From contig MFSE01000010.1 of NCBI GenBank assembly GCA_001784805.1, forward strand, positions 1 through 45,952: 45,952 nt of DNA. The letters run 5' to 3'. Position numbers and translations under genes: made by a program. Below are positions 15,906 to 42,014 of the stretch, one piece after another. Position 1 is the first letter of the stretch; every line of letters starts with the position of its first letter. Source of the stretch: Candidatus Moranbacteria bacterium RIFOXYA12_FULL_35_19. GTDB taxonomy: Bacteria > Patescibacteriota > Minisyncoccia > Moranbacterales > UBA2206. The notes under the pieces were generated by a model. The model was not told the origin of the DNA. It did no database searches and saw nothing but the letters and a program-made list of their open reading frames with translations.

Positions 15906-18089
<2,184 letters not shown>

Positions 18090-18806
18090 CTAAGAATTTT
18101 CCTCTAATAAATACTTGCCTTCTTCTTTTTTATCTTTCAAATAAAGCGCATTGTCATTTAAAAATTCCATATAATCTTTTTTATCTTTAAATTGCTCTAA
18201 AATAGGAACGGTGTTACAAAGCTTATTTTCTTGGTCATTTTCTTTTTCATATTCTGCCAAACTAGAATATTTCCAATTAGAATTATTATAGCCATGAATA
18301 AAATTATTTTTATTCACATAAGCCGAAAGATATAGCAGATATCCATTGGAATCTATGTGGATGGATTTGAATACTCCTTGGAATAAAACTCCTGATCTTT
18401 TATATTTATTGTTAAAATATTTAGTATATCCATTTCCAATTTTTTGCATAAATTTTTCAATACCTTTTTCTTGTAGTTGTTTTAAAATAAAATGATAATG
18501 ATTAGAATTAAGACAATAACAAATAACATCGATTAGTTGCGGAGAAGAAATGGACATCAAATGTCCATTGTGGACATTTGATGTCCATTTCTTCGCTAGA
18601 GAGGTTGAGCCTCCATTTTCGCTTTTCCCTTTCTTTTCTCGCAAATATTTTTCGTATAAACTTCCAATTGGCTCTATTCTGTTGAATTCTTTCATTGATT
18701 TTAGAAATCTTTCGTAATCAAATTTATCCGAAAAAACTTCGCGTTTATCCACTCCGCGGTTGTAGATATGATAAAATTCTCCGTTAGCAAATTCGGTTTT
18801 TCGCAT
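18090..18806 (-). CDS. REP-associated tyrosine transposase (RAYT, HUH/Y1 family)
   Basis: 238 residues. Y1 transposases nick single-stranded DNA at hairpins through a Tyr and an HUH metal site. The HUH motif is His103-Tyr-His105 (SNHYHFILKQ). The catalytic Tyr is in IGNGYTKYFN (residues 127 or 130). YHIYNRGVDKREVF at the N-terminus and KRSGVLFQGVFKSIH are typical of the family. Residues about 62-90 are an insertion encoded by two repetitive elements, one a perfect palindrome of the family that also abuts the gene. RAYTs act as host-domesticated mobilisers of REP palindromes; this link is inferred here from location and shared sequence. A TATAAT six bases before the ATG suggests a leaderless mRNA. 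Confidence 0.9.
   Translation of the reverse strand: MRKTEFANGEFYHIYNRGVDKREVFSDKFDYERFLKSMKEFNRIEPIGSLYEKYLREKKGKSENGGSTSLAKKWTSNVHNGHLMSISSPQLIDVICYCLNSNHYHFILKQLQEKGIEKFMQKIGNGYTKYFNNKYKRSGVLFQGVFKSIHIDSNGYLLYLSAYVNKNNFIHGYNNSNWKYSSLAEYEKENDQENKLCNTVPILEQFKDKKDYMEFLNDNALYLKDKKEEGKYLLEENS
18544..18594. repeat. GGACAT-family palindrome inside the RAYT gene
   Basis: Perfect 24-base arms (18544-18567 and 18571-18594) around TTG, core TGGACATCAAATGTCCA. In frame it encodes [17 protein letters not shown]. It is flanked by a half-copy of the ligA-type element (18599-18613). Confidence 0.88.
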
Positions 18807-33554: not shown

Positions 33555-33736
33555 TGGTCGGAGACCTGGGAATTGAACCCAGTCTACATCCACTTCACCC
33601 CGCACCATTTTTCTGTCGGAGTGTGGAGAATCGAACTCCAACTACAAGACCCCCAGCCTTGCGTACTGCCACTATACTACACTCCGATAAATGGTGCGGG
33701 GCACGTGGACGCGTACTGCCGGTATACTAGTCTCCG
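33555..33736 (-). tRNA. tRNA-like gene interrupted in the anticodon arm by an extended stem carrying tRNA-Pro
   Basis: 5' half: acceptor CGGAGAC, D arm GTATACCGGCAGTAC and anticodon-stem strand CGTCC. 3' half: GGATG, T arm CTGGGTTCAATTCCCAG, acceptor GTCTCCG, discriminator A and an encoded CCA. The acceptor pairs perfectly (7/7) and the anticodon stem pairs with one G-U. The anticodon loop is replaced by an inverted repeat (CCCCGCACCATTT/AAATGGTGCGGGG) that encloses a full tRNA-Pro gene. No anticodon can be read. Either a pseudogene or a functional tRNA scaffold; amino-acid identity unknown. Confidence 0.65.
33616..33686 (-). tRNA. tRNA-Pro (GGG), nested
   Basis: A 71-base cloverleaf with acceptor CGGAGTG/CACTCCG, discriminator A, D arm GTATAGTGGCAGTAC, anticodon loop CTGGGGG (anticodon GGG) and T arm GGAGTTCGATTCTCC. 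No encoded CCA. It lies entirely inside the interrupted tRNA at 33555-33736. Confidence 0.88.
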
Positions 33737-33787
33737 CTACCCGCCTCTTCAGCGGGTCGCCGATGAGGCGACTACACCCCGATAAAT
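33733..33787. repeat. tRNA 5' fragment with palindrome upstream of the interrupted tRNA
   Basis: On the minus strand ATTTATCGGGGTGTAGT repeats the flank and 5' end of the nested tRNA-Pro (ATTTATCGGAGTGTAGT). It is followed by the hairpin CGCCTCATCGGCG, then CCCGCTGAAGAGGCGGG, and then the interrupted tRNA. The gap 33484-33801 has no protein gene; it holds only these tRNA parts and palindromes. Confidence 0.7.
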
Positions 33788-34666: not shown

Positions 34667-34945
34667 ATGAATTGCGTTTATATATTACGAAGTACAAAAA
34701 ATCAAAAATTTTATATTGGCTCAACAAACAATTTAAAAAGAAGAATTAAAGAACACTCGAAAGGAACAGGTTGTTTATACACTAGATTAAATGGCCCATG
34801 GATATTGATTTGTTTTAAAAAATGTTTTTCAATAAAAGAAGCTAGAATTGAAGAAAAGAAAATAAAATCCTACAAAGGTGGCAATGCTTTTAAAAATATT
34901 ATTTTTGGAAAGGTGGCTGAGTGGTCTAAAGCGGCACCGTGCTAA
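34667..34945 (+). CDS. Free-standing GIY-YIG endonuclease (UPF0213-like)
   Basis: 92 residues. GIY-YIG signature VYILRS...KFYIGST, the conserved Arg in NLKRRIKEH, and the catalytic-type Glu in EARIEEKKIK. The single small domain is typical of YhbQ/UPF0213 and homing-type nucleases. It lies between tRNA-Ser(TGA) and tRNA-Ser(GCT). Its last 13 codons (VAEWSKAAPC end) overlap the tRNA gene and the stop codon is in the anticodon loop. The C-terminus therefore comes from tRNA sequence, which suggests insertion or fusion next to the tRNA. Confidence 0.88.
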   Translation: MNCVYILRSTKNQKFYIGSTNNLKRRIKEHSKGTGCLYTRLNGPWILICFKKCFSIKEARIEEKKIKSYKGGNAFKNIIFGKVAEWSKAAPC

Positions 34946-34993
34946 GGTGTTGTCTGGGCAACCGGACCGTGGGTTCAAATCCCACCCTTTCCG
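34907..34993 (+). tRNA. tRNA-Ser (GCT)
   Basis: Class II cloverleaf with acceptor GGAAAGG/CCTTTCC, discriminator G, anticodon loop TGCTAAG (anticodon GCT), long variable arm and T arm GTGGGTTCAAATCCCAC. It overlaps the 3' end of the GIY-YIG gene by 39 bases. No encoded CCA. Confidence 0.94.
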
Positions 34994-35009
34994 CAAAGTT
35001 TAAAAAATA

Positions 35010-35119
35010 TTCAAGGTGGCTGAGCTTGCCCCGCCAAAGGCGGGGTGAAGTCTAAAGCGGCACCGTGCTAAGGTGTTGTCTGGGCAACCGGACCGTGGGT
35101 TCAAATCCCACCCTTTCCG
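35010..35119 (+). pseudogene. tRNA-Ser (GCT) duplicate with palindrome inserted in the D loop
   Basis: From TGGCTGAG onward it is identical to the upstream tRNA-Ser(GCT), except that 25 bases (35025-35049, arms CTTGCCCCGCC/GGCGGGGTGAAG) replace two bases of the D loop. The acceptor 5' strand is TTCAAGG instead of GGAAAGG, so only four of seven acceptor pairs remain. The anticodon, variable and T arms are intact. Probably a non-functional copy. Confidence 0.85.
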
Positions 35120-35178
35120 CCTTCGCTCGCAGTAGCGAGCTACGGCGGACAAAGTCCGCAAGGTAGCTTGCGAAGGCG
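35118..35178. repeat. Compound GC-rich palindrome after the tRNA-Ser copy
   Basis: The outer arms CGCCTTCGC/GCGAAGGCG enclose AGTAGCGAGCTAC/GTAGCTT-type pairing and the inner hairpin GCGGACAAAGTCCGC. The left arm starts inside the acceptor end of the copied tRNA. Confidence 0.82.
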
Positions 35179-41532: not shown

Positions 41533-41715
41533 TTATTCCACATCCACATCCGAAAAATCTAAATCTGGAAATTCCATTTCAGCCCCCGGAGCAATAGCGA
41601 TTTTTACTGTTTTATTATTATCATCGTCATCTGCAAAAACAGGAACATTGCCATCTGGATCAGGAAATTTTATCTCTACACCTGGTGCAATAGCCCTTAC
41701 TATTGTTTTTCCCAT
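41533..41715 (-). CDS. Small acidic protein with an internal repeat
   Basis: 60 residues. Two copies of a similar block: IVRAIAPGVEIKFPDPDG (about 4-21) and VKIAIAPGAEMEFPDLD (about 37-53), joined by an acidic linker (FADDDDNNKT). An excellent Shine-Dalgarno AGGAGG lies eight bases before the ATG, which is rare in this window and supports a real gene. No signal peptide. I do not recognise a family. Confidence 0.75.
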   Translation of the reverse strand: MGKTIVRAIAPGVEIKFPDPDGNVPVFADDDDNNKTVKIAIAPGAEMEFPDLDFSDVDVE

Positions 41716-41723
41716 TTGCTTAT

Positions 41724-41729
41724 CCTCCT
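41724..41729 (-). promoter_or_regulatory. Perfect Shine-Dalgarno before the small acidic gene
   Basis: AGGAGG eight bases before ATG 41715. Only this gene, the orphan gene at 45181-45798 and pilA have such strong sites. Confidence 0.7.
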
Positions 41730-41790
41730 TTTTTATTGTAGTTTAAATTATTTTATTACAATAAATCGTGTGTTACCTCTCACCATTTTG

Positions 41791-41863
41791 TGTCCTCGGG
41801 AGGAATCGAACCTCCGACCTTCTGGACCGCAACCAGACGCTCTATCCACTGAGCTACGAGGAC
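41791..41863 (-). tRNA. tRNA-Arg (GCG)
   Basis: Cloverleaf with acceptor GTCCTCG/CGAGGAC, discriminator A, D arm AGCTCAGTGGATAGAGC, anticodon loop TTGCGGT (anticodon GCG) and T arm GGAGGTTCGATTCCTCC. No encoded CCA. Confidence 0.94.
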
Positions 41864-41871
41864 AATGATAT

Positions 41872-41973
41872 TTCTGGACCGCCCGCCTCGACTCGCAAGA
41901 CAGCTTGCTTGTCGATGCGAGGCGGGCAACCAGACGCTCCCCGCCTGCCGACGAGGCAGGTATCCACTGAGCC
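41872..41973 (-). pseudogene. tRNA-Arg remnant with two palindromes in its loops
   Basis: On the minus strand GGCTCAGTGGATA, then an insertion, then AGCGTCTGGTTG, then a second insertion, then GGTCCAGAA match the intact tRNA-Arg next to it. Insertion 1 (41939-41961, CCTGCCTCGTCGGCAGGCGGG) is in the D loop. Insertion 2 (41881-41927, arms CCCGCCTCG.../...CGAGGCGGGC) is in the anticodon loop. The acceptor stem and T arm are missing. It lies eight bases 5' of the intact gene. Confidence 0.85.
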
Positions 41974-42014
41974 CTATAAGCGCTTTATTCCACACTACTA
42001 TAAACAATAATTTT

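Follow-up and report, generated by a model that had tools for sequence, protein, structure and literature searches.

The intact tRNA-Arg(GCG) gene on contig MFSE01000010.1 of Candidatus Moranbacteria bacterium RIFOXYA12_FULL_35_19 is accompanied by a second, tRNA-like stretch that is broken by two palindromes, which raises the question of where this second copy comes from and how the palindromes entered it. The analysed stretch of 45,952 nucleotides will be referred to as the window. The original prediction took the copy, placed at 41872-41973, for a duplicate of its neighbour, invaded by hairpins that a single-strand transposase would target to hairpin loops. The two palindromes in a tRNA-like stretch are real; its extent had to be corrected to 41872-41983, since an end at 41973 leaves out the acceptor 5' strand of the remnant. 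The locus comprises the following features:

41790-41863, minus strand: intact tRNA-Arg(GCG), the replacing or "inner" tRNA (ARAGORN and Rfam RF00005, 71.6 bits)
41872-41983, minus strand: 5' part of an older resident tRNA-Arg(GCG), with the acceptor 5' strand GCGCTTA, the D arm and the anticodon arm
41882-41926, plus strand: hp1, a 45-nt palindrome of a dispersed family, in the anticodon loop of the remnant between positions 34 and 35
41940-41960, plus strand: hp2, a 21-nt palindrome of a dispersed family, at the edge of the D loop and the 3' D stem of the remnant between positions 21 and 22

The intact gene is the sole tRNA of the genome with a GCG anticodon, and a spacer of 8 nt separates it from the upstream remnant, a gap that holds neither an integrase gene nor an ORF. 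On the minus strand the remnant reads GCGCTTATAGGGCTCAGTGGATA, hp2, GAGCGTCTGGTTG, hp1, CGGTCCAGAA, or GCGCTTATAGGGCTCAGTGGATAGAGCGTCTGGTTGCGGTCCAGAA as a continuous sequence with the palindromes removed. The acceptor 5' strands of the two tRNAs differ, being GCGCTTA in the remnant and GTCCTCG in the neighbouring intact gene. The variable, T and acceptor 3' parts of the old tRNA-Arg are gone in this genome and present in a relative of the same genus (G004), where a complete tRNA-Arg is preceded by the old 5' part and followed by CGCAGGTTCGATTCCTGCTAAGCGCAC, which represents the old 3' part. As the complete tRNA-Arg thus lies inside the old one in G004, the Arg locus represents a replaced tRNA and not a tandem duplicate, and the supposed copy of the intact gene is instead an older resident whose place was taken by the present one. 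In another genome (G005), the promoter-like stretch of the locus sits directly before a clean tRNA, as if the remnant had been deleted.

Both palindromes fold strongly, and no shuffle equals hp1 (z = -5.9). With up to three mismatches, CCTGCCTCGTCGGCAGG has 2 matches in the window vs. 0.01 expected, and the hp1 arm pattern has 1 vs. 0.00 expected; chance is excluded for hp1 and hp2 by these folding and pattern statistics. The genome-wide search that the original prediction proposed identifies both sequences as dispersed families of about 20 copies each in this 0.99-Mb genome (~20 hp1-type places and ~23 CCTGCC-N-GGCAGG places), and the empty sites it called for exist: G004 carries the same locus with hp1 and without hp2, GGATA/GAGC being unbroken, and the Arg remnants of G024, G025 and G040 are unbroken at the hp1 site (GGTTGCGGTCC or GGTTGCGGT). 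Two different palindromes have therefore entered precisely, as had been proposed, at the D-loop edge and in the anticodon loop. The target-site duplication that was also to be looked for is absent from both insertions, which are exact by comparison with the empty sites of the relatives. The comparison with relatives establishes both the nesting and the palindrome insertions at the Arg locus. Many hp1 palindromes lie within AT-rich arrays of TACGAAAT-like repeats (L014, L018, L020, L025-L027).

The claim that the palindromes are targeted to hairpin loops stands for tRNA remnants and falls for the genome at large. An automatic scan for tRNA fragments split by 12-75 nt returned 27 cases, three of them spurious; after exclusion of the latter and merging of orthologues, both by hand, 20 independent palindrome insertions in tRNA remnants are left, of which 17 are located in loops (P about 1e-5). 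The D-loop site GGNTA/GAGC is hit in 9 of 379 Patescibacteria genomes, spread across the phylum; all ten matches are tRNA-like, and most of them are remnants just upstream of an intact tRNA. The palindrome-in-T-loop pattern occurs, among the same 379 genomes, only in G040, so that the D-loop form is the widespread one. On the other hand, only 4 of 29 genome-wide copies of the hp1 and hp2 families are found in local inverted repeats (mean rank 0.51, combined P = 0.13), and general hairpin-loop targeting is thus not supported. As to the single-strand transposase, Y1 genes do exist in the genome (five matches, four of them RAYT-like), but the four RAYT-like genes have other palindromes beside or within them (CTAACATT..AATGTTAG, TGGACATC..GATGTCCA, TTGGACATC.. 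and CTTCCTAAGGTTCAACC..). Neither hp1 nor hp2 is present at these four genes, no cognate RAYT was found, and the ends of the hp1 and hp2 copies read out share no constant GTAG or CGTC tag; RAYT/Y1 transposases were rejected as the palindrome source because their genes carry no cognate palindromes. A Y1/RAYT-like gene of the window (PF01797 match at 18309-18566, minus strand) has its own palindrome, TGGACATCAAATGTCCA..TGGACATTTGATGTCCA, at 18052-18089 and 18550-18587, beside and inside the PF01797-matched stretch, and the other RAYT-like genes of the genome likewise carry palindromes of other sequence beside or inside them.

Replacement of one tRNA from within another is not confined to arginine. 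A second nest in the window concerns proline:

33615-33686, minus strand: intact tRNA-Pro(GGG), lying within an older tRNA-Pro at its anticodon loop
33703-33736, minus strand: 5' half of the older tRNA-Pro (CGGAGACTAGTATACCGGCAGTACGCGTCCACGT)
33555-33593, minus strand: 3' half of the older tRNA-Pro (GTGGATGTAGACTGGGTTCAATTCCCAGGTCTCCG..), positions 36-74, E 1e-7
33687-33702, minus strand: left inverted-repeat arm of the nested tRNA-Pro cassette, GCCCCGCACCATTTAT
33598-33608: right arm of the nested tRNA-Pro cassette, ATGGTGCGGGG
33737-33781, minus strand: beginning of an even earlier tRNA-Pro (CGGGGTGTAG), with two palindromes after it

Among 133 tRNAs of three genomes (G000, this genome, with G016 and G040), same-isotype fragments were found at tRNA flanks 30 times in sense orientation vs. 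0 in the reverse-complement control. Both old halves surround an intact tRNA at Glu in this genome, at Pro(GGG) in the window, and at Arg(TCG), Gly(CCC) and Thr(TGT) in G016; the break in the outer tRNA usually lies in a loop, some loci show a displaced 3' half only (L171), and nests of three generations occur (e.g., Arg(TCG) in G016, Arg in G021). Inner and outer tRNA share the isotype and usually the anticodon, and such nesting is found in many Patescibacteria, the inner and outer sequences being frequently far diverged. Where the outer anticodon is readable it equals the inner one in 9 of 10 cases judged by eye (chance about 1e-14), the exception being GCA vs. GCG at L080. Almost all anticodons are served by a single gene in G000, G016 and G040, and an insertion without rescue into a single-gene function would be lethal, so that selection alone would suffice to explain the anticodon match. 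The analysis covered sequence searches and the regions surrounding tRNAs and GIY-YIG matches. The genomes are mostly metagenome assemblies, and the pattern recurs in independent assemblies and on large contigs (826 kb in G040). A literature search, with subscription journals mostly outside its scope, returned no report of nested tRNA genes in bacteria.

Other tRNA-derived arrangements were observed as well. Several displaced fragments of tRNA-Gln, Leu and Arg (L101, L155, L158, L092, L076) carry, in place of the complete 17-nt anticodon arm, a perfect hairpin of similar length (CCCCGCCTTGGCGGGG or TCCCGATTTTATCGGGA, for example). Partial tRNA-Ser copies in several families (L053, L062, L070, L073) are fused to a similar hairpin pair, cggattcga..attcgaagggttgc..gcaaccc, beside an intact tRNA-Ser. 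In G040 (L130, 740-860), tRNA-Ser(GGA) is followed by two tandem units ending in the last 17 nt of the tRNA (aggaatgaaagggatgagaagtttatgccccggaggggtaaatcccgcctcttccgc), and a similar unit follows tRNA-Tyr at L132.

Several nested tRNAs lie in the T loop of the outer tRNA between the arms GGCACGCCCC..GGGGTGAAATT, and the left arm of the tRNA-Pro cassette described above is of the same type as the arms of these T-loop cassettes. Nine matches to the arm pattern were obtained from a scan of 84,980 species. Eight are tRNA-in-tRNA T-loop cassettes for Arg, Gly or Pro; the records holding seven of these bear the names Patescibacteria, Moraniibacteriota or BMS3Abin15, and the eighth comes from an unclassified MAG. 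The remaining match falls within an Oryzomonas coding region and was discarded as due to chance. Viral contigs contained no T-loop cassette pattern. One 115-bp cassette is common to different outer tRNAs in two families: L086 and L087 carry cassettes 99% identical, vs. 79-81% for the outer halves and 57% for the upstream DNA. The near-identity of a cassette housed in different outer tRNAs demonstrates that it is, to all appearances, horizontally mobile.

What could drive such replacement is suggested by a third tRNA locus of the window, at which a nuclease gene is found:

34667-34945, plus strand: GIY-YIG endonuclease ORF (92 aa; PF01541, E 1.2e-16), running into the following tRNA-Ser(GCT)
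34907-34994, plus strand: intact tRNA-Ser(GCT) (ARAGORN/Rfam)
35013-35121, plus strand: displaced tRNA-Ser(GCT) copy without the first bases of its 5' acceptor strand
35025-35049, plus strand: palindrome CTTGCCCCGCCAAAGGCGGGGTGAA in the D loop of the displaced copy, where it takes the place of two bases

The displaced copy and the intact gene share an identical stretch of 71 nt, and in G002 (L207) a larger palindrome occupies the same D-loop place. In 23 related genomes, 40 of 92 GIY-YIG ORFs lie within 200 nt of a tRNA, representing 15 isotypes, these fractions being approximate because the ORFs were drawn from the stronger matches in score order, with UvrC set aside. All 40 are on the same strand as the tRNA (P 2e-35). 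A displaced same-isotype fragment accompanies 21 of them (control 0) and is missing at the remaining 19; typically it is a 5' fragment where the ORF precedes the tRNA and a 3' fragment in the opposite order, and at L142-L144 the remnant and the intact tRNA flank the ORF. Of 20 GIY-YIG ORFs from other families of the phylum, 5 neighbor a tRNA, again without exception on its strand. Nine tRNA-linked proteins share invariant Y, G, R and E residues of the GIY-YIG fold. In a tree of the GIY-YIG proteins the tRNA-linked ORFs cluster (10 changes vs. 25 in shuffles), and the tree follows tRNA isotype weakly (21 changes vs. 23.2, P = 0.04). Only weak matches were obtained among phage proteins, under 46% identity over 70% of the length. 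Adjacency, shared strand, same-isotype displaced fragments and conserved catalytic residues are established for these putative nucleases. No GIY-YIG ORF is present at the Arg locus (41700-42010) or in the T-loop cassettes with inverted-repeat arms, so that a second mobility mechanism is possible, and the armed cassettes may move by another route.

A single-strand element (HUH/Y1 or similar) that enters hairpin loops could produce both the palindromes and the palindrome-armed cassettes, with the tRNA as a passenger and the GIY-YIG nuclease as a bystander. The preference for loops in tRNA remnants, the build of the horizontally mobile cassettes as inverted repeats with a tRNA in the loop, the Y1 transposases of the genome and the REPs known inside palindromes of other bacteria (PMC3733652) would fit such an element; we nonetheless consider it unlikely, as the genome-wide hp1 and hp2 copies are not in inverted-repeat loops, other palindromes accompany the RAYT-like genes, and GIY-YIG ORFs abutting tRNAs with same-isotype fragments would be left unaccounted for. 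REP/RAYT systems resemble the present case in their short palindromes dispersed in one genome, some of them within other palindromes (PMC3733652), and differ from it in that hp1 and hp2 lack a cognate RAYT and, within tRNA remnants, hit tRNA loops. The mobile hairpins (RHE) of sponge mitochondria are likewise GC-rich, of unrelated sequence and invasive in small genomes, but they belong to another type of genome, and the accessible portion of their description does not include tRNA replacement (PMC2800124). Decay of one copy after tandem tRNA duplication, with random palindrome insertion, would suit the 71-nt identity of the tRNA-Ser copy at 35013-35121, and is very improbable: it does not yield split outer halves around an intact tRNA with breakpoints in loops and inverted-repeat arms, both-sided nesting recurs at several loci, and inner and outer tRNAs are often far diverged.

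Inserts of another kind are equally to be weighed. Tyrosine-integrase islands and phages use tRNA genes as classic integration sites and commonly leave a restored tRNA and a displaced fragment (PMC4383910, PMC9897764), and loci with a displaced 3' half alone (L171) would agree with remnants of this type. Such an origin is nevertheless improbable, given that both outer halves flank a complete and often very different tRNA, that D loops also serve as insertion sites, that the unit measures about 115-500 bp and lacks an integrase, and that one and the same 115-bp cassette is housed by different outer tRNAs. The likeness to the islands catalogued by Islander (PMC4383910) and to tRNA fragments (PMC9897764) accordingly concerns the split tRNA, the intact tRNA that is kept and the displaced fragment that remains; the differences are the lack of an integrase, the tiny inserts, the complete tRNA cargo, the displacement of both halves and the use of several loops. 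Judged by eye, none of the four stems is missing from several outer tRNAs (Glu in G000, Pro in the window), as would be expected if these tRNAs were still functional and the inserts were spliced from the RNA as introns. We hold this to be highly implausible: Rfam at gathering thresholds finds only tRNAs and no intron in the window, a perfect hairpin stands in place of the outer anticodon arm at several loci (Gln at L101, L155 and L158), the Arg locus has lost the old 3' half, and an inner tRNA with the same anticodon would be redundant. The tRNA-Thr(GGT) of G016 (L114, G016:C4, 995-1268) has an anticodon-loop insert of ~200 nt that resembles a group I intron by eye; it gave no Rfam intron match and was set aside.

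The Arg locus is probably the scar of a tRNA replacement, for which free-standing GIY-YIG homing elements in tRNA genes are the likely driver. They are favored because their closest precedent is SegB of phages T4/T6, a free-standing GIY-YIG homing endonuclease located in a tRNA cluster (PMC2988022, PMC13096335). SegB cuts in tRNA genes at the T-loop-like motif RAWTSGAAC and co-localises with tRNAs in phages (PMC13096335); it promotes the inheritance or amplification of tRNA regions, and the co-localisation in phages extends to many isotypes (PMC2988022, PMC13096335). The likeness consists in a small GIY-YIG nuclease gene next to tRNA genes. The present case differs in that the ORF abuts or overlaps a single same-strand tRNA on bacterial chromosomes, that it has next to it the broken resident tRNA, which shares the isotype, and that nests reach three deep. 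Insertions in rRNA genes of CPR bacteria (PMC11270868) are comparable in other respects: they occur in the same bacterial group, include GIY-YIG ORFs in non-intron insertions and have sites at the top or base of stem-loops; they differ in affecting rRNA genes and in their many group I introns and LAGLIDADG nucleases, tRNA going unmentioned in the main text.

Under the GIY-YIG homing explanation, the nuclease would break a tRNA gene, whose repair would bring in a copy of the nuclease gene along with a tRNA, or half of one, of the same isotype; as an intact tRNA would be present throughout, the insertion would be tolerated. At the Arg locus, the resident tRNA-Arg(GCG) would have been interrupted by DNA with a second complete tRNA-Arg(GCG), and the newcomer would have taken over the old function and presumably the old promoter. 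The old tRNA would then have decayed to its 5' remnant, in which the two dispersed palindromes would have inserted as secondary events; cuts made in remnant loops may be the reason why palindromes cluster at these places. Later loss of the ORF, presumed for the Arg locus, would leave only nested tRNAs and remnants, and repeated rounds would give rise to two- and three-deep nests. Counted against GIY-YIG homing are the missing ORF at the Arg locus and in the armed cassettes, the 19 tRNA-linked ORFs that lack a displaced fragment, the weak fit of the tree to isotype, and the fact that the intact tRNA may have the very sequence of the displaced one, so that the nuclease would somehow have to spare the tRNA of its own host.

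More tentatively, and with chances that we would put somewhat short of even, Patescibacteria might harbor selfish "home-and-rescue" elements, in which a GIY-YIG nuclease destroys an essential single-copy tRNA and supplies a replacement with the same anticodon, resulting in serial nested turnover and movement between lineages. If true, these elements would be natural counterparts of rescue gene drives. Genes for tRNAs are usually seen as vertically inherited and stable; here, essential single-copy ones appear to be repeatedly broken and replaced from within by mobile tRNAs with the same anticodon, often with a nuclease gene alongside. Such turnover would account for odd tRNA fragments in reduced genomes, and would provide a natural rescue-type gene drive together with testable pairs of nuclease and target, the latter being the adjoining tRNA.
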